In this document: one piece after another, positions 43,894 through 57,043 of the stretch | How positions within the stretch are numbered: position 1 is the first letter of the stretch | Layout of the letters: every line of letters begins with the position of its first letter | Origin: Paramesorhizobium salinisoli | Lineage (GTDB): Bacteria > Pseudomonadota > Alphaproteobacteria > Rhizobiales > Rhizobiaceae | Assembly (NCBI RefSeq): GCF_003335045.1 | Contig: NZ_QOZG01000006.1 | Location: 186,001-250,000 of the forward strand | Direction of reading: 5' to 3' | DNA: 64,000 nt | The notes under the pieces: model-generated | The model's input: only the letters and a program-made list of their open reading frames with translations | Databases searched by the model: none | What the model was told of the DNA's origin: nothing | Program-made: the position numbers and the translations under genes

Positions 43894-45105
43894 ATGTCCA
43901 ACCCTTACCGAGAAATTTTCAAGGCGCCGGGATCCAAGGCTTTCGCCTCGGCCGGTTTCCTGGCGCGCCTGCCGCTCGCAATGGTCACCATGGGTACGGT
44001 GGCCATGCTGTCGCAGACCCATGGTGAATACTGGCTGGCGGGCGCCGTTTCCGCCACCTTCGCACTCACCAACGCCATTGTATCGCCACAGATCTCGAGG
44101 TTGGTGGACCGATACGGCCAGAGCCGTGTCCTCACCCCGGTGACATCCGTCTCCGTGGCGGCATTCACAGGGCTGATCCTCGCCGCGCATTATGGCTGGC
44201 AGAACTGGCTGCTTTTCCTCTTTGCCTTCATTGCAGGGCTCATGCCGAGCATGCCGGCCATGGTGCGGGCGCGCTGGACGGCGCTTTACCGGGATACGCC
44301 GAAGCTGCACACCGCCTTTGCCTTTGAATCCGTCCTCGACGAGGCGATCTATATGATGGGCTCGGTGCTTTCCATCGGGCTGAGCGTTGCTCTCTTCCCC
44401 GAGGCAGGGCCTCTTCTTGCAACCCTGTTCTTAGGCGTCGGAACGGCGCTCTTTGTGGCGCAGAAATCCACGGAGCCTCCGGTTCAACCGGTCGAGGCCA
44501 GGGGTGGGCGCTCGGCCATAAGGCTCGGTGCAGTGCAGATCCTGACCTTCACGCTGATCGCCATCGGTACGATGTTCGGCACGGCGGAAGTCACTGTCAT
44601 CGCCTTCTCCGAGGAACTGGGCCATAAAGGCGCAGCAAGCTTCATCCTGGCCGGTTATGCCGGAGGGTCGCTGCTCGTGGGGCTGGTGTTCGGCACGCTC
44701 AGGCTGACCATGCCACTGTCACGGCAGTTCCTGTTCGCCATCGTCGTTGCGATGCTGACAGCCCTGCCGCTCCTGGCAGCCGACAGCATCTGGAGCATGG
44801 CGCTCCTGCTGTTCCTCGCAGGCGCATCGATTTCGCCGACCTTCATCACCGCTTTCGGGCTGATCGAGCGTCTGGTGCCATCCTCACAGCTGACGGAGGG
44901 AATTACCTGGGCGATGACCGGCATCGGCATCGGAATGGCCATTGGCTCCTTCGCTTCCGGCTATGTCATCGATGCCTATGGCGCCCGGAACGGCTTCTGG
45001 ATTTCCGTGGCGGCAAGTGGTGTCGCGTTGACGACCGCGCTGATCGGCTACCGGATGCTGCAGGTTCCAGCCCGAACTCAGGCATCCCAGGCCGCACTCG
45101 CATAG
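43894..45105 (+). CDS. MFS efflux transporter
   Basis: 403 residues with twelve hydrophobic segments. The GFLARLPLAMVTMGTVAML opening and ISRLVDRYGQSRVL loop-2/3 motif are those of drug-efflux MFS proteins. It is divergent from a TetR repressor with three operators and is followed by a strong bidirectional terminator, so it forms a self-contained inducible efflux unit. The substrate is unknown. Confidence 0.88.
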   Translation: MSNPYREIFKAPGSKAFASAGFLARLPLAMVTMGTVAMLSQTHGEYWLAGAVSATFALTNAIVSPQISRLVDRYGQSRVLTPVTSVSVAAFTGLILAAHYGWQNWLLFLFAFIAGLMPSMPAMVRARWTALYRDTPKLHTAFAFESVLDEAIYMMGSVLSIGLSVALFPEAGPLLATLFLGVGTALFVAQKSTEPPVQPVEARGGRSAIRLGAVQILTFTLIAIGTMFGTAEVTVIAFSEELGHKGAASFILAGYAGGSLLVGLVFGTLRLTMPLSRQFLFAIVVAMLTALPLLAADSIWSMALLLFLAGASISPTFITAFGLIERLVPSSQLTEGITWAMTGIGIGMAIGSFASGYVIDAYGARNGFWISVAASGVALTTALIGYRMLQVPARTQASQAALA

Positions 45106-45133
45106 ATGTTGCGCCTGATACCAGAATACAGAG

Positions 45134-45165
45134 AAATCCCATCCGCTTCAGCGGGTGGGATTTTT
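45134..45165. terminator. strong bidirectional rho-independent terminator
   Basis: AAATCCCATCCGCT pairs with AGCGGGTGGGATTT (one G-U), with TTTTT following on the plus strand and AAA preceding for the minus strand. It lies 29 bp after the MFS stop and about 33 bp after the end of the convergent small gene, so it serves both. Confidence 0.85.
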
Positions 45166-45197
45166 GTAGCCGCGGGACGGATATTGACAATCTCGGC

Positions 45198-45512
45198 TTA
45201 CGGCACTTTGGGCAAATATTCCCTGATCTGGCTTTTCTGAAGTTCAGCATAAGCCTCATCAGGGGACAAAGCAGCAAGGCGAGCCAGAACGCCCAGCGCG
45301 CCCGCCAAAAGCTGGCGCTCGATTTCCGGAAGCGTTGAGCGCTCGGCCAGATCCATGGCGAGCTCGATCGTGGCGCTGGGTCCGAATTCATTCCCATCAT
45401 GGGCACAAAGCTGGAGCCGAATCGAACCGCTTACCGTCGCGCCGTCGAAACCCTCATGACGCCGCAGCCCGAACACCTGAACATCGGTAACCGCGCGGTT
45501 GCTATAATTCAT
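45198..45512 (-). CDS. conserved-looking hypothetical protein, 104 aa
   Basis: I do not recognise the family. The protein has an N-terminal beta-rich part (VFGLRRHEGFDGATVSGSIRLQL in parts) and a C-terminal helical part rich in Leu and Ala (LPEIERQLLAGALGVLARLAALSPDEAYAEL in parts). It has no signal peptide, membrane segment or cysteine pair; it contains one Cys. Codon use resembles neighbouring genes, and the strong terminator at its 3' end supports a real transcript. The start ATG 45512 has no obvious ribosome site. Confidence 0.6.
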   Translation of the reverse strand: MNYSNRAVTDVQVFGLRRHEGFDGATVSGSIRLQLCAHDGNEFGPSATIELAMDLAERSTLPEIERQLLAGALGVLARLAALSPDEAYAELQKSQIREYLPKVP

Positions 45513-45752
45513 GCATGCTTCTCCCGTTTACTCCCGCCAAGTTGAACCAACAGATCATGGAATTTCAATATAGTATAGCCCATCCTTAAGCTATTGCGTA
45601 ATGTCCCTTACTATTTCAAATATAGCAAATCGCCAAGATCTTCCAGGTCACGATTTTTTTGCCAGAAGCCGATAGGCCACCCCGCTTTTTTACCACTTTA
45701 CAGTTTGTTCACACTCCCCCATTGTTCGTCGTGCGGGTTGGGATTCGGGGCA

Positions 45753-46220
45753 GTGCAAGGCAATATTGCAGTCCCATGGAAGCAATTGGGGCGATCCAAA
45801 GTGACATCGGCAAATCATGCATCGCGCATTTCCGCTCAGGATCTGCACGGCAGTGCATTGGGCGGGAATGGCAAATACGCGTCAAGAGCCAAGACGGAGC
45901 TCTCACGCTACAATGCCAGAAAAGTTCAGATGTTCATGCGCGAGAATGTCGCGAAGAAGCTCACTGTAGCCGATCTGGCGGAGGTTTGCGGCCTTTCTTC
46001 AAGTCATTTCATCAGCGCCTTCACCCAGACCTTCGGGCAGGCGCCCTATGGGTATCTTCTGAATCTGCGCATTGCCCATGCCGAGAGGCTGCTTGCCGAG
46101 CGCGACATGACCATCGCGCAGGCGGCCTATCTCAGCGGTTTTTCCAGCCAGAGCCATTTGACCTCGGCAATGAAAAAGATCAGGGGCGCGACGCCGTTTA
46201 TTTTCCGCAATCGTAAATAG
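45753..46220 (+). CDS. short AraC-type transcriptional regulator
   Basis: About 155 residues with an AraC/XylS double helix-turn-helix at the C-terminus: KKLTVADLAEVCGLSSSHF, HAERLLAERDMTIAQAAYLSGFSSQSHL (in parts) and ATPFIFRNR. No effector domain of normal size is present. The frame is open upstream into an AT-rich stretch (45541-45720), so the start is uncertain; GTG 45753, TTG 45786 and GTG 45801 are candidates. It lies 287 bp before the giant repeat-protein gene on the same strand and may control it. Confidence 0.72.
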   Translation: MQGNIAVPWKQLGRSKVTSANHASRISAQDLHGSALGGNGKYASRAKTELSRYNARKVQMFMRENVAKKLTVADLAEVCGLSSSHFISAFTQTFGQAPYGYLLNLRIAHAERLLAERDMTIAQAAYLSGFSSQSHLTSAMKKIRGATPFIFRNRK

Positions 46221-46365
46221 CGATCACCAGGCCACATTGTGAACACGTTGCCGATAACCGCGGGGCTCATTCTCGCATCGAGCGTCATACGCAAAAAATA
46301 ATTTCCAGACGCTGATTAACCATAGGATGTTGAAATACATCCCTCCGCAAATCAGACAGCTCCCT

Positions 46366-46392
46366 CAGTTGAGATTATCCCGTGCTCAACTG
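46366..46392 (+). terminator. 8-bp inverted repeat in the leader of the giant repeat-protein gene
   Basis: CAGTTGAG and CTCAACTG pair perfectly around 11 nt (46374-46384), 146 bp after the AraC-type stop and 115 bp before the giant gene. There is no U-tract. It may end the regulator transcript or be an operator or leader hairpin for the surface system. Confidence 0.35.
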
Positions 46393-46507
46393 CCCAGGTC
46401 GCGGCATTGAAGCGACAGCAAACTTAGATCAGCTGCATCGCTTTGGTCGCGTTAGTCGAGGGTAGTGCGCTCACTGGGTGGTTTCACATCCGAGGGGGTA
46501 CTGTTCG

Positions 46508-49500
46508 ATGCTTCATTCAGCCTTGCTGTGCAACTATTTGCGCCGTTTCGCCGACCAATTTGCGCGTGCAGCAATTGTCTGGCTCGCGATCATGGCATTT
46601 GCCGCTCCGGCACATGCCCAGTTGGCGACCGGAGGCACTGGTCTCTATAAAAACAGCATCTTCTGGGTATCCTGGGGAACTGCCGGTACAAATGTCTTCT
46701 CGGGCCGTTCTGTCATACAAAGTTTCAATATTGGTTCGCCAGCCACTTCAGCCAACCAGGTGGACCTCACTTGTACGCTGTCAAATGCCGTAAACACGGC
46801 AGGGGCCGCTGTTCTCAATGTCTACAGGCCCGGTGGCTGGCAGGGTGATGGCCTGGACGAGCTATATAATATCGGTGGGAACCAGGCAGGGGGAGGGACA
46901 AACCCGAACACGCTGGCTATCGGACTGGCGACAGGGTCAGGAGCGACCGTCGAGTTCGATTTCAGTTGTACGGCTACCCTGGGCGGGGCCCCGCTTGCTC
47001 TTAGAGGCCTTGTTTTTGCAGATGCGGAGAGCAGCGGCTCCAACGAGTATGTCGGGGCTGAGTTGCCAGGTGGTAGCACGCTTCGCGTGATCGACCAGAT
47101 TTCGCAGTGCGGGGCATCCACTCAGGTTACCATTTCCGGCTCCGAAGTGCGTTTCACCGGACCGGCTGCCGCTTGCCAGAACGACGCAAACCCGGCGCGG
47201 CGTGCCGGACCAGCACTGGTAGGGTATCTGGAGGGCGCCACGTCGGCGCGAGTGATCGCGAAAGGTGGCGGCGTTTCAGCTATTGCCGTTGGCGCGATGC
47301 TGGACATTGAATATTCTGAGGCGGTTCCTTCCAGCTATGGCGTCGCCAGTCACATCCTGGAGCCCGTGTGGAGCGGAGGGCAGGCGACTGCCGGCGTGAA
47401 CTACAATAATCCGGCCAATCTTGCGACGCGCGGGTTCGGCGTTAGTCTTGGCAGCGCCATTATAACCGACCAGAATGAAAATAACGCGGTTGGCGGTCCA
47501 GATGTCGATGCACTGCGCAAGACGACTGGACCGCTCGGCGCAGGCTACGCCGATGTACCGATGCCCTCCAACACGCCCGGATCCACCTATCAGATCACCG
47601 GCGCTGTCTGCCGGGGCCCGGCGGCCATCGCTGGATGGATCGATTTCAACGGCAATGGTGTGTTCGATGCTGGCGAGCGTTCCGATACTGTAAACTGCCC
47701 TGCGGGCAGCAGCAGTGTGACGCTAAGCTGGATTGTGCCAAGCGACTACGCAATTCAGTCGACAAGTTACATGCGTTTGCGGGCAGCCACGGATTCTTCC
47801 GATATCGCCGAGCCAGCCACCATCGCATCTGACGGCGAAACGGAAGACTATTACATCCAGTTGCTTCCCGCCGACCTGGCGATCACCAAGGATGACGGCG
47901 CAAGCACCTATGCGCCGGGCGGCAACGTCACCTATTCCATCGTCGTCACCAATAACGGTCCCGCTGCAGTGACCGGCGCTAAAGTCAGTGATCCGCTGCC
48001 CGCGGGCATTACAACGGCAAGCTGGACCTGCGGCGACGTTACTGCCGGGGCCGTATGCGGCGCGGCAAGCGGCACCGGCGCAATCGACACCACGGCGGAT
48101 CTGCCGGTGGGCGCCTCGCTCACCTATGAATTCGCGATGAGCGTACCGGCCGATTTCACCGGTGACCTCACGAACACCGCCACGGTTGCTGCTCCCGCCG
48201 GCGTGACTGAGACAGAGACCTCAAACAACAGTGCGAGCGACACCGATGTTCAGGGCGTTCCTGGGCTGACCATCGACAAGACGGGCGCTCTGAGCGATCT
48301 TGACGGCGACGGTCTGCTTGATCCGGGCGAGACGATCAGTTATGCGTTCCTGGTCACCAACACCGGCACGGTGACGCTGACCAATGTCACGGTCAACGAC
48401 CCGAAGATCACGGTCGATGAGGCACCGCAGACGCTGGCGCCGGGTGGCAACTTCACTTTCCACGCTAGCTATACGCCAACGCAGGCCGAGATCGATGCGG
48501 GGCAGGTGTCGAACACCGCGACCGGTACCGGCACGCCGCCGTCGGGTCCGCCGACGGAAAGTCCGCCCGATACGGTCGTGGTGCCGCCGGATCAGACGCC
48601 CGGACTGACCATCGATAAGACGGGGACGCTGAACGACCTCGACGGCGATGGCCTGCTCGATCCGGGCGAGAGCGTCAGCTACGCATTCCTTGTCCGCAAC
48701 ACCGGCTCGGTAACGCTGACCAATGTCACGGTCAACGATCCGAAGGTGACAGTCGATGAGGCGCCGCAGACGCTGGCGCCGGGTGGCAGCTTCACTTTCC
48801 ACGCCAGCTACACGCCAACACAGACCGAGATCGATGCGGGTGAGGTGTCGAACACGGCGACCGGCGTCGGCACGCCGCCTTCCGGGCAGCCGACGGAAAG
48901 CCCGCCAGACACGGTCGTGGTACCGCCGGAACAGGCGTCCGGCATGACCATCAACAAGACGGGGACGCTGAACGACCTCGACAGCGACGGTCTGCTCGAT
49001 CCGGGTGAGACGGTGAGCTATTCGTTCCTAGTGCGCAACACCGGCGCAGTGACGCTGACCAATGTCACGGTCAGCGATCCACTGCTGGCCAATGCCAACG
49101 TCGCGCTCGACCAGGGTCCGCAGACGCTGGCGCCAGGTGCGTCGTTCACCTTCACCGCGACCTATACGCCGACGCAGGATGAGATCGATTCCGGTTCTGT
49201 GTCGAACACGGCAACCGGCACGGGTACGCCGCCCTCCGGTCCACCAGAGGAAAGCCCGCCCGACACGGTCGTGGTGCCGCCGGACGAAACGCCCGGACTG
49301 ATGATCGACAAGACGGGGACGCTGAACGACCTCGACGGCGACGGACTGATCGATCCAGGCGAGACGATCAGCTATGCGTTTCTGGTCACCAATACCGGAA
49401 GTGTGACGCTGACCGCCGTCACGGTAAACGACGCCAAGGTGACGGTCAATGAAGGCCCGCAGACGTTGGCGCCAAGCGGCCGCTTCACCTTCCACGGGAC

Positions 49501-51697
49501 TTACACGCCAACACAAGGTGAGATCGATGCCGGACAGGTGTCGAATACGGCGACCGGCACGGGCACGCCGCCCTCCGGCCCGCCGGTGGAAAGCCCGCCT
49601 GACACGGTGGTGGTGCCGCCGGAACAGACGCCTGGCTTGACCATCGAGAAATCAGGCACGCTCAACGATCTCGACGGCGACGATCTCATCGATCTTGGCG
49701 AGACGATCAGTTATTCCTTTCTGGTGCGCAACACCGGCACGGTGACAATGAGCGAGGTCACCGTCAACGATCCGCTGCTGACCGATGCAGGCGTGTCGGT
49801 GATGCCGGGCCCGCAGGTGCTGGCGCCTGGCGGCAGCGTCACCTTCACCGCGACCTTCACGCCAAGACAAGCGCATATCGATGCCGGCCGGGTGGAGAAC
49901 ACGGCGACGCCGACCGGCACGCCACCGTCGGGCCCGCCGCTCGAAGGCCCGCCCGACAATGTAGTGGTGCCTCCTGAACAGACGTCGGGCATTACCATCG
50001 ACAAGACAGGCACGCTCAATGACCAGAACGGCAACAACCTCATCGATCCGGGAGAGACGATTACCTACGCCTTCGTGGTGAAGAACACTGGCACGGTGAC
50101 GTTGACCAACGTCACGGTCAACGATCCACTGCTCGCCAATGCTGGTGTGACTCTCAACGAGGGGCCGCAGGCGCTTGCGCCGGGTGCAGACTTCACCTTC
50201 ACGGCAAGCTATATGCCGACGCAAAGTGATATCGAGGCGGGTTCGGTAACCAACACCGCCACCGGCATTGGCACGCCGCCCTCCGCTCCAACGCTGGAAA
50301 GCCCGCCGGACACGGTCGTCGTGCCGCCAGTCGAAATCTCGCGCCTGACGATCGAGAAGACCGGCACGTTCAACGATGTTGATGGCAATGGCTATGCCAA
50401 CCTTGGCGATACGATGAGCTACAGCTTTACGGTGACGAACACCGGCGGGCAGGTGATCAGCGATGTTGCGCCGGTCGATGCCGGGCCGACGTTCAACGGC
50501 AAGCCGGCGACGGCGACGCTGTCGGCCTTTGCGCCGGCAAGCGTGACCTTGGCCGCTCGGGCGGCGCAAGCCTTCACCGCCACTTACACGCTGACGCAGG
50601 AGGACATAGACAATGCCGCGGGTGTGACCGACGGCATCGTGAATGCGGCGACCGCCAAGGGCAACGTCGGGGGTACTCCGGTACCGTCCAACACCTCGAC
50701 CTCGAAGGTGACGATGCCCGCAGTGGAGCCCTCCGACATCTCCATCGTCAAGCAGGCCGGGCTGCGCCAGATCAAGCGGGGCGAGAAGGCGCCGTTCACC
50801 ATCAAGGTAACCAACCATTCCAGCCGCAATGCCGGCACGGTTGTTGTCACCGACATTATTCCCTCAGGCTTCCGCTTCATCGACGGGTCGGCGATGATCG
50901 ACGGCGTGGCGGCGACACCCGTCGTGGTCGGCCAAAAGGTGCGCTTCGACAATGTGGCGCTCGGCCCCAATGCCGAGGTGATCATCCGGCTGCAGATGCT
51001 GGCATTGAGTTCGGCTGGTCCGGGCAAGCACACCAACAAGGCGGCGGTCAACGGCCTCGACGGCGGTCTGCTGGCGCCGGAAGCCCGCGCCGACATCGAG
51101 ATCATGATCGAACCGGTGTTCGATTGCGGCGACATCGTCGGCAAGGTGTTCGACGATCTGAACCGCAATGGCTATCAGGATCAGGGCGAGCCGGGCCTGC
51201 CGGGCGTGCGTATCGCCACGGTCCGGGGTTCGCTGGTGACGACGGACCGGCATGGCCGCTTCCACGTCGCCTGCGCCGACCTGCCGGACAGCCGCATCGG
51301 TACCAACTTCATCATGAAGCTCGACCCGCGCACACTGCCGGCCGGCTACCGGTTGACCACGGAGAACCCGCGCGTCATCCGCCTGACTGCCGGCAAGATG
51401 TCGACGTTGAACTTCGGGGCCTCCATTGGTCGCGTGGTGCGCCTCGACCTGATGGATGCGGCGTTCGAGCCGGGCGCCGCTATTCTCAAACGGCAATGGC
51501 AGGAAGGCATCGAGCAGCTGATCAAGGCGCTCGAGGGCGAGCCATCGACGCTGCGCATCGGCTACGGGGCGACCTCTGACGCGGAACTTGCCCGCCGGCG
51601 TATCAAGGCGATCGAGGAGGACATCTCGCAACGATGGAGGTCGGTCAGGGGTCGGTACGAACTCAACATCGAGACCCGCGTGGAGGCAGTCCAATGA
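46508..51697 (+). CDS. giant secreted repeat protein (CshA-like, GEVED, DUF11, DUF7507 repeats, SdrD_B and OmpA-like ends)
   Basis: 1729 residues; ATG 46508 follows AGGGGG at 8 nt. Signal peptide ends near residue 37 (AHA-QL). Approximate order: CshA-like N-terminal domain (40-290); GEVED-type domain with IDFNGNGVFDAGE (360-450); DUF11 domain (454-580); six DUF7507-type repeats from residues 587, 700, 813, 931, 1044 and 1162; a divergent seventh from 1280; a second DUF11 domain (1410-1530); an SdrD_B-like domain with DDLNRNGYQDQGEPG (1538-1610); and an OmpA-like C-terminal stretch (FEPGAAIL, LRIGYGATSDAELARRRI). Most repeats contain a DxDxDG-type loop, so calcium binding is likely. It is probably a cell-surface adhesin or matrix protein. 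The next gene overlaps by ATGA. Domain names are by pattern recognition only. Confidence 0.85.
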   Translation: MLHSALLCNYLRRFADQFARAAIVWLAIMAFAAPAHAQLATGGTGLYKNSIFWVSWGTAGTNVFSGRSVIQSFNIGSPATSANQVDLTCTLSNAVNTAGAAVLNVYRPGGWQGDGLDELYNIGGNQAGGGTNPNTLAIGLATGSGATVEFDFSCTATLGGAPLALRGLVFADAESSGSNEYVGAELPGGSTLRVIDQISQCGASTQVTISGSEVRFTGPAAACQNDANPARRAGPALVGYLEGATSARVIAKGGGVSAIAVGAMLDIEYSEAVPSSYGVASHILEPVWSGGQATAGVNYNNPANLATRGFGVSLGSAIITDQNENNAVGGPDVDALRKTTGPLGAGYADVPMPSNTPGSTYQITGAVCRGPAAIAGWIDFNGNGVFDAGERSDTVNCPAGSSSVTLSWIVPSDYAIQSTSYMRLRAATDSSDIAEPATIASDGETEDYYIQLLPADLAITKDDGASTYAPGGNVTYSIVVTNNGPAAVTGAKVSDPLPAGITTASWTCGDVTAGAVCGAASGTGAIDTTADLPVGASLTYEFAMSVPADFTGDLTNTATVAAPAGVTETETSNNSASDTDVQGVPGLTIDKTGALSDLDGDGLLDPGETISYAFLVTNTGTVTLTNVTVNDPKITVDEAPQTLAPGGNFTFHASYTPTQAEIDAGQVSNTATGTGTPPSGPPTESPPDTVVVPPDQTPGLTIDKTGTLNDLDGDGLLDPGESVSYAFLVRNTGSVTLTNVTVNDPKVTVDEAPQTLAPGGSFTFHASYTPTQTEIDAGEVSNTATGVGTPPSGQPTESPPDTVVVPPEQASGMTINKTGTLNDLDSDGLLDPGETVSYSFLVRNTGAVTLTNVTVSDPLLANANVALDQGPQTLAPGASFTFTATYTPTQDEIDSGSVSNTATGTGTPPSGPPEESPPDTVVVPPDETPGLMIDKTGTLNDLDGDGLIDPGETISYAFLVTNTGSVTLTAVTVNDAKVTVNEGPQTLAPSGRFTFHGTYTPTQGEIDAGQVSNTATGTGTPPSGPPVESPPDTVVVPPEQTPGLTIEKSGTLNDLDGDDLIDLGETISYSFLVRNTGTVTMSEVTVNDPLLTDAGVSVMPGPQVLAPGGSVTFTATFTPRQAHIDAGRVENTATPTGTPPSGPPLEGPPDNVVVPPEQTSGITIDKTGTLNDQNGNNLIDPGETITYAFVVKNTGTVTLTNVTVNDPLLANAGVTLNEGPQALAPGADFTFTASYMPTQSDIEAGSVTNTATGIGTPPSAPTLESPPDTVVVPPVEISRLTIEKTGTFNDVDGNGYANLGDTMSYSFTVTNTGGQVISDVAPVDAGPTFNGKPATATLSAFAPASVTLAARAAQAFTATYTLTQEDIDNAAGVTDGIVNAATAKGNVGGTPVPSNTSTSKVTMPAVEPSDISIVKQAGLRQIKRGEKAPFTIKVTNHSSRNAGTVVVTDIIPSGFRFIDGSAMIDGVAATPVVVGQKVRFDNVALGPNAEVIIRLQMLALSSAGPGKHTNKAAVNGLDGGLLAPEARADIEIMIEPVFDCGDIVGKVFDDLNRNGYQDQGEPGLPGVRIATVRGSLVTTDRHGRFHVACADLPDSRIGTNFIMKLDPRTLPAGYRLTTENPRVIRLTAGKMSTLNFGASIGRVVRLDLMDAAFEPGAAILKRQWQEGIEQLIKALEGEPSTLRIGYGATSDAELARRRIKAIEEDISQRWRSVRGRYELNIETRVEAVQ
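48266..50734 (+). repeat. tandem coding repeats of 339/354 bp in the giant surface gene
   Basis: Units begin at 48266, 48605, 48944, 49298, 49637, 49991 and 50345. Lengths are 339, 339, 354, 339, 354 and 354 bp, then 390 bp for the divergent last unit. The 15-bp difference is a 5-residue insertion (DPLLANAN- or DPLLTDAG-type against DPKVTV-type). Each unit starts LTIDKTGTLNDLDGDGLL-like and ends SPPDTVVVPP. High DNA similarity makes copy number prone to change by recombination. Confidence 0.92.
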
Positions 51698-54600
51698 GAA
51701 CGATCATCCAGAGTTCGATATTGCGTTCGTCTGCCTTCCGTCATGTGATTGGCCAACAGCGCAATCTGCTTCTGGCGGGTTGCGCCCTGGCGGTGGTGCA
51801 TGCGGCGACGATCGGCGCTTCGGCCCAGGATGCGCCGTTGCGCGGCCAGGTGCTGGACAATAGCGCCGTGCGCAATGTCGTCATAGCGCCCAATGTCGAA
51901 GAGGAGCGGCCGGGTGAGGGCGGGGACATCCCGTTCTCGATCAGCGTCGATGGTGAGCCGGTTGTGGAGAGCAACGATGCGGCGAGGAAAGCGACCGAAA
52001 AGCCGGCGTCCCTGGCTGCGTCGAAAACCGACCATCGGCGTCCAGCCAATCAACAACGCAAGACCGATGTCGGCCTCGCCGCCGTCGATATTCAGGTCAA
52101 GTTCGACGGGCTCGACGCAAGGCCGATCCTCAACGTCTCCACCGTGCCGGTGCGCCGCGCCTATAATGTCGGCGAACCGGTGCGCTTCCTCGCCACCGCA
52201 AACTATCCGGCTTTCATCGCGCGCTCCGAGATCCGCATCTTCGAGGCCGACGAGGCTTTGACCGGCAAACCTGTGAGCGTCATTCCTGTCGCCGTAAACG
52301 GCGAGGCCGGTTGGGTGATGCCCGAGACGGAAAAGGACGAGACTCGGTTCAAATATGTGCTGCGCGTCTATGATGGCGAGGGCCGCTATGACGAGACGCT
52401 GCCGCGCGCTATCGCGCGCACGGACAAGGAGCTTCCGGAGGAAGACACCAGGATCACCGATGCCCCGGCGCCCGGGATGGGCGAAGACAATACCGGCTCG
52501 CGCAATATAAAGGTCCATGGCGGGGCGGTGACGGTCTATGGCCGCAACGTGCCCGAGGGCTATCAGGTGCGCGCGCTGGACGGCATCGTGCCGCTCGACC
52601 GCAATCAGGCCTTCGTGGTGCAGCGCATCCTGCCGCCCGGCGATCACGATGTCGACGTCGCGGTTCTGGGTTCGATGAAGGGCAGTGCACTCGACTTCAG
52701 TCGCCGGGTCAACATTCCCGACAATGACTGGTTCTATGTCGGGCTTGCCGATCTGACCGTGGGCAAGCGCATGGGCGACGACAATATCGAAGCCGTTCGT
52801 CCCGGCGAGTACGACAAGGTCTACACCAAGGGGCGGCTTGCCTTCTACGTGAAGGGCAAGATCAAGGGCAGATATCTGCTGACCGCCGCGGCCGATACCC
52901 GCGAAAGCGACATCAAGGATATGTTCCGCGGCCTAGATGACCGGGATCCGCGCAGCCTGCTTCGCCGCATCGATCCCGACGCCTATTATCCGGTCTATGG
53001 CGACGACTCGACCATTCTTGAGGACGCGCCGACCAACGGCAAGTTCTATGTCAGGCTCGATCGTGGTGACAGCCATGTGATGTGGGGCAATTACAAGGCG
53101 TCCGTGACCGGCACGGAGTTCATGCATTCGGAACGTGCGCTTTATGGTGCGAGCGGTGTCTACCGTTCCGAGGCGGTGACCTCGTTCGGCGAACGCCAGA
53201 CGGAGGTCAACGTCTATGCTGCCCAGCCCGATACGCTGCCGCAGCGCGACGAATTCCTTGGCACCGGCGGCTCGGCCTATTTCCTCAAGCGCCAGGACAT
53301 CACCACCGGCTCGGAGACGCTGAGCGTGGAGGTGCGCGACCAGGTGACTGGCCAGGTGCTGGAGCGCAAGACGCTCGTCTATGGCGAGGATTATACGTTC
53401 GACTATCTACAGGGCGTGATCATCCTCAAGCGCCCGCTGTCATCGTCGACCGGCACCGGCTCGGCGATACGGGAAGGAGCGCTCGGCGGTAACCGGGTCT
53501 ATCTCATCGCCCAGTACGAATATACGCCGACGGCCGGCGACGTGGACGGCTATGTCTATGGCGGCCGCGCCCAGCATTGGTTAGACGATAAGGTCCGTGT
53601 CGGTGTCACGGGCATGAGCGAGACCACCGGCGTTGCCGACCAGCAGGCGCTCGGCGCCGACATCACCATCCGCCATTCGGAAAAGACCTTCCTCGAAGCG
53701 GAAGTCTCGCATTCCAAGGGACCGGGCTTCGGCACGTCGCGCTCTGCCGATGGCGGACTGACCTTGAGCGATGTCGCCACCACGGGCTCGCGCAACCGCG
53801 CGGCGACGGCCTGGCGCACCAAAGGTCAGGTCGATCTGGAGGACATCAGCAAAAGCGGCATCAAGGGAACCGTCGGCGGCTATTACGAGGAAAAGCAGGC
53901 CGGTTTCTCGACGCTTGCAGATCAAATCGCCGTGGACCAGCGCATCTTTGGCGCGCATGCCGACCTCGAACTGACCGAAGATACCGACCTCAAGCTCACC
54001 TATGACGACTTCCACGAGGGGCGTGATTACGACGACTTCTACGGCCGTGAGACGGGCGGGCGCACCAAGCGCAAGGGTGAGGCGACTGTTAGCCATCAGC
54101 TCAATGAATATTGGAAGGCGTCCTTCGGAATCTCCTATACCGAATTGCGCTCGCCCATCGCCGTCCGCTCCGGCAAGGGCGGCTATGATGGTGAAAGGCT
54201 CGATGCCGGCGCCCGGCTCACCTATGCCCCCGACGCCGACCAGGAATATTACGTCTTCGGCCAGGGCACGCTGTCGCGCGACGGCGATATCAGGCGTAAT
54301 GACCGCATCGGCGTAGGCTCGAAATACCAGCTGACCGAGACAATCGGCCTGGAAGGCGAGTTGTCCTACGGCAATAGCGGTGTGGGCGGTCTCGCTGCCA
54401 TCAACTATGCGCCAACGGAGGCCGACAATTACTATTTCGGCTACCGGCTCGATCCCGACCGCGGCTTCGACCTCGATCGCAGCTATGATCTCGACGGCAA
54501 TGACCTGGGCACCATCGTGCTTGGCATGCGCCGCAAGCTCGACGACACGCTGTCGACCTATGCGGAGAACAATTACGATCTGTTCGGCCGCAGGAACTCG

Positions 54601-55500
54601 CTGACCAAGACCTACGGTGTCGTCTATACCCCGGATGCGATGTGGACCGTCGATGGCGGCTTCGAGGCCGGCACGATCGAGGACGACAGCATCGATCCGG
54701 GTACCGGGCTCGAGCGCGCCGACTTCGACCGCAAGGCGATTTCGCTTTCTCTAGGCTACAAGGATGAGGAGCGCGGCATCAACGCCCGCATGCGCGGCGA
54801 GGCGCGGTTCGAGGAGTCCGACGACGGCAGCCGCGACCGCAACACCTATCTGTTCGCCACCGGCCTCTCCTGGAAGACCAGCGAGGACTGGCGCCTGCTC
54901 GTCAATCTCGATGCGGTGCTCTCCGATACCTCCGGCGAAACGTCGTTCCGCGACGGCGATTATGTCGATGCCTCCCTCGGCTATGCCTATCGCCCCGTCG
55001 ACAACGACCGCCTCAACGCGCTGTTCAAATACAGCTGGGTCTATGATCTGCCAGGCAAGGACCAGGTCAGCGCCATCACCGGCGCCGAATACGGCCCGGC
55101 GCAGCGCAGTCATATCCTGTCGGCCGACTTCACCTACGATCTGATGCCCTGGCTGTCGATTGGCGGCAAATACGGCATGCGCTACGGCCAGGTCCGCGAG
55201 AGACTCCTCGACGGCGACCGCGAGAGCTTCTCCGAATGGTATTCGTCTTCCGCCCATCTCGGCATCGTTCGCGCCGACCTGCATGTGGTCAGAAACTGGG
55301 ATGCGCTGCTGGAGGGCCGCGTCATGCACATGCCCGAGGCGAAAACCACCGACTACGGCGCGCTCGTCGCTGTCTATCGCCATGTCGGCGAAAATTTCAA
55401 GGTCGGCGCCGGCTACAATTTTGGCGTCTTCTCCGATGACCTCAGGGACCTCACCCTCGACGACAAGGGCGTCTTCATCAATGTTATCGGAAAGTTCTAG
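51694..55500 (+). CDS. large predicted outer-membrane beta-barrel protein coupled to the giant repeat protein
   Basis: 1268 residues. A long signal peptide (cleavage near residue 44, ASA-QD) precedes a disordered linker and an Ig-like or Big-like region (VDIQVKFDGLDARPILNVS). A middle domain carries the blocks YTKGRLAFYVKGKIKGRYLL, YYPVYGDDSTILEDAPTNGK and FYVRLDRGDSHVMWGNYK. From about residue 620 to the end, alternating aromatic and polar strands (many ending in Y-x-F or W-x-L) and a C-terminal Phe (INVIGKF) indicate a BAM-assembled outer-membrane barrel. No TonB box or plug domain is evident. ATG 51694 overlaps the upstream stop (ATGA), so the two products are made together. Export, anchoring or folding of the repeat protein are possible roles. 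Confidence 0.8.
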   Translation: MRTIIQSSILRSSAFRHVIGQQRNLLLAGCALAVVHAATIGASAQDAPLRGQVLDNSAVRNVVIAPNVEEERPGEGGDIPFSISVDGEPVVESNDAARKATEKPASLAASKTDHRRPANQQRKTDVGLAAVDIQVKFDGLDARPILNVSTVPVRRAYNVGEPVRFLATANYPAFIARSEIRIFEADEALTGKPVSVIPVAVNGEAGWVMPETEKDETRFKYVLRVYDGEGRYDETLPRAIARTDKELPEEDTRITDAPAPGMGEDNTGSRNIKVHGGAVTVYGRNVPEGYQVRALDGIVPLDRNQAFVVQRILPPGDHDVDVAVLGSMKGSALDFSRRVNIPDNDWFYVGLADLTVGKRMGDDNIEAVRPGEYDKVYTKGRLAFYVKGKIKGRYLLTAAADTRESDIKDMFRGLDDRDPRSLLRRIDPDAYYPVYGDDSTILEDAPTNGKFYVRLDRGDSHVMWGNYKASVTGTEFMHSERALYGASGVYRSEAVTSFGERQTEVNVYAAQPDTLPQRDEFLGTGGSAYFLKRQDITTGSETLSVEVRDQVTGQVLERKTLVYGEDYTFDYLQGVIILKRPLSSSTGTGSAIREGALGGNRVYLIAQYEYTPTAGDVDGYVYGGRAQHWLDDKVRVGVTGMSETTGVADQQALGADITIRHSEKTFLEAEVSHSKGPGFGTSRSADGGLTLSDVATTGSRNRAATAWRTKGQVDLEDISKSGIKGTVGGYYEEKQAGFSTLADQIAVDQRIFGAHADLELTEDTDLKLTYDDFHEGRDYDDFYGRETGGRTKRKGEATVSHQLNEYWKASFGISYTELRSPIAVRSGKGGYDGERLDAGARLTYAPDADQEYYVFGQGTLSRDGDIRRNDRIGVGSKYQLTETIGLEGELSYGNSGVGGLAAINYAPTEADNYYFGYRLDPDRGFDLDRSYDLDGNDLGTIVLGMRRKLDDTLSTYAENNYDLFGRRNSLTKTYGVVYTPDAMWTVDGGFEAGTIEDDSIDPGTGLERADFDRKAISLSLGYKDEERGINARMRGEARFEESDDGSRDRNTYLFATGLSWKTSEDWRLLVNLDAVLSDTSGETSFRDGDYVDASLGYAYRPVDNDRLNALFKYSWVYDLPGKDQVSAITGAEYGPAQRSHILSADFTYDLMPWLSIGGKYGMRYGQVRERLLDGDRESFSEWYSSSAHLGIVRADLHVVRNWDALLEGRVMHMPEAKTTDYGALVAVYRHVGENFKVGAGYNFGVFSDDLRDLTLDDKGVFINVIGKF

Positions 55501-55574
55501 AGTTTCGCGCACACGATACTGAAGCGTCTTTCGAGGTAGTTTCAAAGACGATCAGCGCCACCACATAAACCCAA

Positions 55575-55598
55575 GCCACGGAGACACATCTCCGTGGC
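55575..55598 (+). terminator. stem-loop after the surface-protein pair
   Basis: GCCACGGAGA pairs perfectly with TCTCCGTGGC around CACA, 75 bp after the barrel gene stop. A GGTTTCGG follows rather than a clean U-run. It is the likely 3' end of the two-gene transcript. Confidence 0.55.
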
Positions 55599-55766
55599 GG
55601 TTTCGGCAATAGGTATTTTGACAAAGGTTTTCCCGCAATCGCAGCCAGAAACGATTGACTAGTGCTGCGGTAATTGCCCGCAGATCGTCTTTATCATCTT
55701 CCAGGCCAGGCATTCAGGCATGGTGGCAACCACGCCAGCTTGTGGCCCCAGCCTGTGGACCGGCCG

Positions 55767-56888
55767 CTAGCCGATAGCCGCGTTTAACTGGCGCTGCTGC
55801 AGATCCAGGTCAAGCTCCGTCGCGCGGGCGATGATCGGTGCGAAACGCCGCAGCTTCTTTTCTTCATGATTGGATGCGATGTCCGCGATGCGGTGCTTGA
55901 GGAACGGATTGAGAAAACGTTCGCGCACGGAAACGACATAGGCTTCCGCTTCCAGGCCAAGGCCGTCCGCCGCAAAGACCGGCAGCACCTCTTCGCGCCA
56001 GACGGCTTCCAGCCGGGTGCGGATCGCTTCGTCCTGCATCGCCTCCAATACGGTCTCATCTTTCGGGCGATTACCCTTGAGCCACTGCTCCGCAATAAAG
56101 CTATGGCCGAGATTAAGCAGATGGAGCTTCAGGCGCTCATAGCGCGCCAGATCATTCGTCAAGACGATATCGGGATGAGTGCAGGGAAGGGTCAGTCCTT
56201 CTGCGTTTTCGATCGCCCATAGTGCGTATGGCTCGGCTACCGCGCCCACCGGTTCAATGGGTTCGGACACGATGCGGTCAACCAGGCTGTTGGCGAAAAT
56301 ACATACGCTTTCGAGCCATTGGATAAAATTGTCCGATAGTTTCCAGTCCCGCGGCAGACCAGTCAGGATCGAGCGCAGCATGTCGCCATTGCGCGAAACC
56401 AGTTCGCAGGGAAAGATGGAAAGGGGCATTTCCGGATTTTTCTTCCAGCGATGATGCAGAAGGACCAGCAGCTTGGCCGGAAAACTCTTCGGCAAGGCGT
56501 CCGGATGGGCGAGCAGTGAACTGTCGTCGCCTGCATCGAGCTCGTAACCCTTGTCGCCGGTGTTGGAGAGGATCACCTCCACCGTTGCGCCAAGCTCAAG
56601 AATCGCCGGCCAGTCATCCTGGGCCGAATAGGCAGCACTTACGCCTTGTGCGCGGTGTTCTATCTCGGTCGGTCTGCCATCGATCAGGCCGCGGATAATG
56701 ACCGGATAGCCCATGCCTTCATTCAGCGCGGCGATCCGCCGGGCGCTTTGCGGATTGGATGTTGTCTGCACGACGGCGATGGTGCCGATAGCCTCATTCC
56801 GGGAAAGCCCTTCCGATACAAAGAAATCGGCATGGGCCAACAGAAAACGGCTGGTGCCGAACTGCAGAATCGCTGGCTTTTCGTACAT
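55767..56888 (-). CDS. uxaB: tagaturonate reductase / altronate oxidoreductase (UxaB-like)
   Basis: 373-residue long-chain mannitol-dehydrogenase-family protein. The Rossmann entry QFGTSRFLLAHADFF and the catalytic K-x(3)-N-x(2)-H pattern in RLKLHLLNLGHSF are visible. The layout is closer to altronate than to mannonate oxidoreductases. It reduces D-tagaturonate to D-altronate with NADH. It is divergent from a FadR-type regulator that also precedes altronate dehydratase, which supports the tagaturonate assignment. Fructuronate reductase remains possible. Confidence 0.83.
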   Translation of the reverse strand: MYEKPAILQFGTSRFLLAHADFFVSEGLSRNEAIGTIAVVQTTSNPQSARRIAALNEGMGYPVIIRGLIDGRPTEIEHRAQGVSAAYSAQDDWPAILELGATVEVILSNTGDKGYELDAGDDSSLLAHPDALPKSFPAKLLVLLHHRWKKNPEMPLSIFPCELVSRNGDMLRSILTGLPRDWKLSDNFIQWLESVCIFANSLVDRIVSEPIEPVGAVAEPYALWAIENAEGLTLPCTHPDIVLTNDLARYERLKLHLLNLGHSFIAEQWLKGNRPKDETVLEAMQDEAIRTRLEAVWREEVLPVFAADGLGLEAEAYVVSVRERFLNPFLKHRIADIASNHEEKKLRRFAPIIARATELDLDLQQRQLNAAIG

Positions 56889-56934
56889 GACGTCCTCCCG
56901 AATTTATGGAAGCAAATAGGTGTTGTTTGATAAA

Positions 56935-56947
56935 TTGGTCAAGCCAA
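56935..56947. promoter_or_regulatory. candidate FadR-type operator, copy 1
   Basis: TTGGTCAAGCCAA (TTGG-TCAAG-CCAA) lies 47 bp from the uxaB-like start. It matches the copy at 57044-57056 at 10 of 13 positions. FCD-type GntR regulators bind short TTGGT/ACCAA dyads of this kind. Confidence 0.5.
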
Positions 56948-57043
56948 AAATACGGATTCAGGGGCGGCGAATAACCTCCCTGCGCACAAATGGCGCGATT
57001 TGCCGCAGTTTTAAGCGTATTGCCATTCACCTGCCTCACAAAT

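Follow-up and report, generated by a model that had tools for sequence, protein, structure and literature searches.

The window analysed here is a stretch of 64,000 nucleotides (nt) from Paramesorhizobium salinisoli (contig NZ_QOZG01000006.1), and this study concerns two adjacent genes within it: gene 1, which encodes a fibrillar adhesin, and gene 2, which encodes a predicted outer-membrane barrel protein. Both are open frames, they are co-directional and they share ATGA at their junction; the coordinates, the plus strand and the overlap given in the initial annotation, which was made from the letters alone, were confirmed. The features of both genes are listed in Table 1.

Table 1. Features of gene 1 and gene 2 in the window (aa, amino acids; ORF, open reading frame; Ig, immunoglobulin)
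Feature	Position	Strand	Basis
Gene 1: fibrillar adhesin, 1729 aa	46508..51697, stop included	+	ORF and Pfam
Gene 1 signal peptide, residues 1-37	46508..46618	+	By eye, predictor not used
CshA_NR2 adhesive head, residues 49-264	46652..47299	+	Pfam PF18651, E 5.1e-44
GEVED domain, residues 374-451	47627..47860	+	Pfam PF20009, E 2.7e-15
First DUF11 (CLIPPER) domain, residues 456-579	47873..48244	+	Pfam
Stalk: seven DUF7507 (CLIPPER_2) repeats	48272..50662	+	Pfam, repeat comparison, triad listing
Last DUF11 domain, opens the conserved C-terminal module	50735..51055	+	E 3.6e-12
SdrD_B-like domain, approximate limits	51125..51427	+	Pfam and alignment A3
Last domain of gene 1, predicted OmpA-like strand/helix order	51428..51694	+	Secondary structure; Pfam OmpA unmatched
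Gene 2: predicted outer-membrane barrel protein, 1268 aa	51694..55500	+	ORF
Gene 2 signal peptide, residues 1-44	51694..51825	+	By eye, predictor not used
Conserved short hairpin with SVDG motif, residues 78-92	51925..51969	+	Relatives' alignment and model
Two predicted Ig-like domains, residues ~132-242 and ~267-341	52087..52716	+	Model strand list; domain type inferred
Predicted barrel, ~38 strands, residues 344-1268	52723..55497	+	Model; strands counted by eye
Plug-like beta-rich insert, residues 523-600	53260..53493	+	Model strand list; conservation

The CshA-like, GEVED, DUF11, DUF7507 and SdrD_B content first noted for gene 1 was matched in Pfam, with SdrD_B (residues 1546-1585, E 7.8e-5) below its family cut-off. 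DUF11 is also matched elsewhere in gene 1 than at residues 456-579, and DUF7507 is matched in eight stretches (E 1.1e-167). The repeats had been described as six and near-identical: the six DNA copies, 300 nt each, are only 69-86% identical to the reference copy, and all seven clear DUF7507 repeats carry the full triad of a predicted isopeptide bond (Lys, Asp at +40 and Asn at +78, +83 or +85), with an acidic loop near the start of each. An example of a DUF7507 triad given in PMC12617251 has the spacing +40 and +80.

Concerning the C-terminal end of gene 1, two Cys of the SdrD_B-like domain are invariant in alignment A3. The last domain has the predicted order beta-alpha-beta-alpha-beta, and one Arg is invariant in 25 rows. 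PF00691 (OmpA) is matched in none of the 61 members of alignment A3, the window's included, and the GHTD motif is absent in the 16 of the 61 rows inspected; hhalign against OmpA gives a probability of 30% over only 28 columns. OmpA membership of this end is thus unconfirmed by Pfam, the PDB profile and hhalign; in the VIA rows covering the base of gene 1, the final 88 residues were hardly probed. A true PF00691 is carried at this end by some paired relatives (L022, L137, L138). Judged by its domains, gene 1 is a member of the published class of Gram-negative fibrillar adhesins, with an anchor domain that is unrecognisable here.

The signal peptide (by eye) and the C-terminal Phe initially noted for gene 2 were both found. 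The SVDG hairpin lies within a variable linker and has low model confidence. The plug-like insert is placed after about seven predicted strands and may serve as a plug in the modelled barrel. All family matches of gene 2 are below the cut-offs (OprF in Pfam, E 0.044; OMP_myx_plus in NCBIfam, E 0.065), nothing was matched in PHROGs (E up to 0.01), and PDB sequences gave no match with either the single sequence or a profile. Relatives of gene 2 are annotated as TonB-dependent receptor or hypothetical protein.

Several known classes of barrel were considered for gene 2 and rejected, based on Pfam and NCBIfam scans in which the HMMER filters can drop weak matches. Despite the name used by annotators, the plug and receptor families of TonB-dependent receptors are unmatched in Pfam at E up to 1, as are the POTRA and TpsB families of two-partner secretion (TPS), DUF560 of the type XI secretion system (T11SS, Slam) and PF14349 (SprA_N), although the predicted fold resembles SprA. 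A search of the window's own genome for SprA_N found nothing, but the controls were also silent and the result is uninformative. The autotransporter and inverse autotransporter barrel families (type Va/Ve) are unmatched in Pfam; four fused proteins, described below, also lack matches to these families, and one has a sub-cut-off match to Invasin_D3 (E 0.002). The usher family is unmatched, and no chaperone is present among the four neighbouring proteins scanned. The claim that the barrel is unlike TPS, type V systems, TonB receptors and ushers therefore holds at the level of sequence. A lipobox-like LAGC in the signal region would suggest a lipoprotein; this reading was set aside because some relatives lack its Cys.

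A single scan of genome contigs yielded at least 589 stretches, at least 541 of them relatives of gene 2, and the counts for near relatives rest on the best 80 of these at least 541, hence on the nearest ones. Seven loci with less than 300 nt upstream (L036, L042, L046, L054, L058, L082 and L090) were excluded from the pairing count, and the C-terminal module of gene 1 was counted as upstream if matched to position 326 or more of 334. On this basis, the module is found upstream on the same strand in 62 of the 73 usable relatives. Gene 1 stops at most 300 nt before the barrel frame in 60 of the paired loci and 600-711 nt before it in L045 and L074. The 62 include broken gene 1 frames (L031, L074) and a stop-ridden barrel (L097). 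Sinorhizobium meliloti 4H41 is among the carriers of the pair (L041). Since the relatives of gene 2 are many and the module lies beside 62 of the 80 kept, chance is excluded. The other 11 loci comprise one fusion (L073), eight loci without the module, L067 with a possible gene 1 remnant (by eye) and L083 with a shortened barrel and no gene 1 module. Trees and conservation are based on 72 barrel rows and 61 module rows, stop-ridden and short loci being excluded.

Two loci have other arrangements of gene 1. In Chelativorans multitrophicus (L043:1-9962) two tandem copies precede a single barrel, which could possibly be a shared translocon. On a plasmid of Paracoccus alcaliphilus (L021:5856-12405) two insertion sequence transposase genes and a 231-aa remnant of gene 1 lie before the barrel.

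The pairing was also followed across 397 Pseudomonadota genomes of 232 genera, the window's own genome included. The barrel profile is matched in 51 genomes and 39 genera and the profile of SdrD_B plus last domain in 49 genomes; both are present in 45, the barrel alone in six and the module alone in four, all four with weak E-values (2.4e-5 to 7.9e-4). Of 71 barrel rows 60 were used, the other 11 coming from genes already represented; additional short module rows of frames already listed were likewise left out. The module lies upstream on the same strand at 47 of these 60 places, and at 20 of the 60 module and barrel were counted as one frame because both rows give an equal frame length. Among the other 13 places, the module overlaps the barrel by 62 nt in G138 and was missed by the threshold, gene 1 lies directly downstream of the barrel in G204, and at eight places the frame is at least 1,692 aa long and gives no module match; the remaining frames are of 1,377 aa (G092), 144 aa (G217) and 91 aa (G231). 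The pairing is found in the α, β and γ classes. The order is reversed in L139:539-14680, the barrel being followed by a 3505-aa gene 1 with 22 DUF7507 stretches.

CshA_NR2 is found in four of the 397 genomes, and in three of them it is the head of gene 1 in the pair (G122, G378 and, for the window itself, G000); the fourth place (G287) is a 639-aa frame. Gene 1 of G122 and G378 contains CshA_NR2, GEVED, DUF11 and a true OmpA domain, and the barrel gene starts 10 nt after gene 1 or overlaps it by 4. With three of four CshA_NR2 places in the pair, the published Gram-negative CshA_NR2 adhesins probably belong, at least in part, to this system. In G122 (L137:6886-10167) the barrel frame ends early and its remainder matches in another frame; this barrel gene is broken or misread near its end.

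In several relatives the two proteins are a single chain that has the passenger on the N-terminal side of the barrel. G243, which belongs to the same taxonomic order as the window, has one frame in which DUF7507, DUF11 and SdrD_B are followed by the last domain, the Ig region and the barrel; the module profile is matched over 1-185 of 195, and the SVDG-like motif reads SMDG. Fused frames are present also in Pacificitalea (2032 aa) and Acinetobacter (2008 aa). A shortened in-frame fusion in Phyllobacterium sp. 21LDTY02-6 (L073:7577-12757) joins stalk and SdrD_B onto the barrel; it lacks both the last domain and the Ig region, and the barrel match begins at residue 343. In Croceibacterium, L137 and L138 PF00691 closes gene 1, but in Eleftheria it lies close to the beginning of gene 2. 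The domain order is thus constant while the gene boundary shifts, as would be expected if the two chains meet in the periplasm.

The base of gene 1 is constant and the parts N-terminal to it vary. CshA_NR2 is absent from all 12 additional gene 1 proteins that were scanned (E up to 1e-4); DUF6923 is present in two, SpaA_2 in one and CshA_repeat in two (one sub-cut-off), and no candidate head was recognised in the remaining proteins at that threshold. The stalks differ in composition and length, and gene 1 of Sulfitobacter exceeds 6000 residues. Within the module, the mean share of the commonest residue is 0.82 for SdrD_B, 0.52 for DUF11 and 0.54 for the last domain; the barrel regions, in their own alignment, have 0.61-0.75. 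As the best conserved part of the module, SdrD_B is likely to be the docking part. Pairwise divergences of base and barrel are correlated (r 0.87, 59 loci), which co-inheritance alone would also give.

Taken together, the linkage in 62 of 73 relatives, the 45 genomes with both profiles, the fusions and the shifting OmpA domain strongly support the initial proposal that the barrel serves the repeat protein. We infer, with a rough probability of 0.55, that gene 1 and gene 2 form one surface-display unit in which gene 2 exports and anchors the adhesin. Both proteins would first be exported to the periplasm. Gene 1, tipped by CshA_NR2 as its head and built further of a DUF7507/DUF11 stalk and the constant base (DUF11, SdrD_B and OmpA-like domain), would thread head first through gene 2, a dedicated outer-membrane barrel predicted to be very wide and plugged. 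The base, chiefly SdrD_B, would remain lodged at the periplasmic mouth or inside the lumen and thereby hold the fibre; in relatives with a true OmpA domain, peptidoglycan binding may help retention. The Ig domains may already be folded and cross-linked, and a wide pore would be suited to their passage.

Three observations weigh against this reading. The main fact against an obligate pair is a clade of orphan barrels: the eight loci without the module (L047, L049, L052, L053, L055, L060, L076 and L081) fall in one supported clade of nine (quick tree, midpoint root). Partnerless barrels had been named at the outset as telling against a joint role, and they are found in this one clade, the rest being mostly paired. 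The ninth member, L074, has a gene 1 with a frameshift at a position where L047 and L049, its near relatives, lack the gene, and the simplest account is that gene 1 was lost and the barrel retained. Secondly, these barrels persist beside presumed carboxylase and acyl-CoA dehydrogenase genes, as an uptake channel might. Thirdly, a constant base and barrel with a variable stalk would equally suit a barrel that is only an anchor. The orphan loci belong to Nitratireductor and Chelativorans; their neighbours were read by eye, from translations, as biotin carboxylase, carboxyltransferase and acyl-CoA dehydrogenase, and some loci have iron-type ATP-binding cassette genes upstream (by eye).

The anchor-only explanation survives best among the alternatives, though we consider it rather unlikely. 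Here gene 1 would cross the outer membrane elsewhere and the barrel would just hold its base, as SprF does with SprB, a co-purified pair in Flavobacterium that provides the precedent (PMC9143113). However, SprF has 14 strands and is considered to act together with SprA (PMC9143113), whereas gene 2 is itself SprA-sized in prediction, and the one-protein fusions would need no separate anchor. Also, no other export machinery recurs among the annotated neighbours of 13 plasmid loci, in an unsystematic comparison in which L016, L019 and L023 were featureless.

Distinctly less probable is an independent uptake channel or receptor, with gene 1 as a periplasmic or surface accessory (a tether or ligand catcher). 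Besides the orphan clade, it would account for the name TonB-dependent receptor given to some members, and in Phyllobacterium sp. 628 (L012:13269-15570) exbB, exbD and a tonB family gene lie 1.4 kb downstream of the pair. The unmatched TonB receptor and plug families argue against it, as does gene 1 itself, which in Sulfitobacter has a length, and elsewhere can bear an adhesin head, that suit the medium and not the periplasm. That the two genes only happen to be adjacent, an unrelated barrel sharing plasmids with a mobile adhesin cassette, might be suggested by the 25 plasmid records with a gene 2 relative and by some broken gene 1 copies, but it is already contradicted by the in-frame fusions, the OmpA domain that crosses the gene boundary, the reversed yet adjacent genes of L139 and the pairing in three classes, and is very improbable.

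Beyond a surface-display unit at this locus, we tentatively suggest that the barrel family could be the core of an undescribed class of outer-membrane secretion in Pseudomonadota, with an SprA-sized, plugged and self-sufficient translocon, head-first export of Ig-stalked adhesins with isopeptide cross-links, retention by SdrD_B docking, and both a split two-gene form and a one-protein form in which the passenger precedes the barrel. This would explain a widespread barrel family which now carries receptor or hypothetical names. The system is best seen as a new form of barrel-assisted adhesin display; if transport were shown, it would be a new secretion class. Nearly half of the proteins in a survey of fibrillar adhesins are given as having no known anchor (PMC8286594), and crossing of the outer membrane is unexplained in the accounts of CshA-like Gram-negative adhesins (PMC12617251, PMC10952558, as far as consulted); a dedicated barrel accompanying such adhesins makes this crossing directly testable.

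Concerning the immediate surroundings, no RNA families were found at 45000-56950 and no tRNA in the whole window. Promoter-like sites number one (2.7 in shuffles) and terminator-like sites ten (7.3 in shuffles). An AraC-type gene (45594-46220) lies upstream of gene 1 and looks truncated, since only the last 117 of the 288 residues of its L025 relative align. Related AraC genes flank the pair in nine of the 62 paired loci (seven upstream, two downstream), 35 of the 62 having upstream room to look in; this recurrence suggests a local regulator.

The closest known counterpart of gene 1 is B9T28_05395 of Acinetobacter silvestris (PMC12617251, PMC10952558), with which it shares the head, GEVED, the CLIPPER stalk and an OmpA or OmpA-like end. 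DUF11 and DUF7507 were renamed CLIPPER and CLIPPER_2 after the structure of a DUF11 domain from a Gram-negative adhesin with a CshA_NR2-like head, a GEVED-like domain, a stalk and an OmpA-like end (PMC12617251). Unlike gene 1, the adhesins in the consulted parts of these two accounts have no barrel partner mentioned, and ‘barrel’ and ‘outer membrane’ have no occurrences in the main text of PMC12617251. The initial statement that no characterised counterpart exists thus has to be corrected for gene 1. No report of the barrel family or of the pairing was found in the passages searched of the open-licence PMC literature, which is not proof of absence.

The best fold match of the gene 2 model is SprA (Sov), the very large, 36-strand barrel that is the translocon of the type IX secretion system (T9SS); gene 2 differs in the unmatched SprA_N, and the T9SS is described for Bacteroidota and no T9SS sorting domain is listed for gene 1. 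The giant adhesin SprB has its C-terminal part bound by the barrel of the adjacent sprF (PMC9143113), but SprF belongs to the FadL family, which is unmatched in gene 2, and gene 2 is predicted to be far larger. Chaperone-usher barrels (FimD, PapC) rank second among the fold matches, aligning with the opening part of the gene 2 barrel, and the plug-like insert after about seven predicted strands is comparable in position with the usher plug. In the T11SS paper, checked for DUF11 cargo, a passage on DUF11 names it as occurring together with DUF1194. In two-partner secretion, inverse autotransporters and the T11SS, too, a long passenger goes with a barrel, either as its partner or fused to it, but their POTRA, TpsB, autotransporter and DUF560 families are those unmatched in gene 2. 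In LapA-type adhesins a terminal module retains the fibre in an outer-membrane pore; gene 1 would be retained in a similar way, with the differences that its supposed retention end is C-terminal and that a signal peptide is present.

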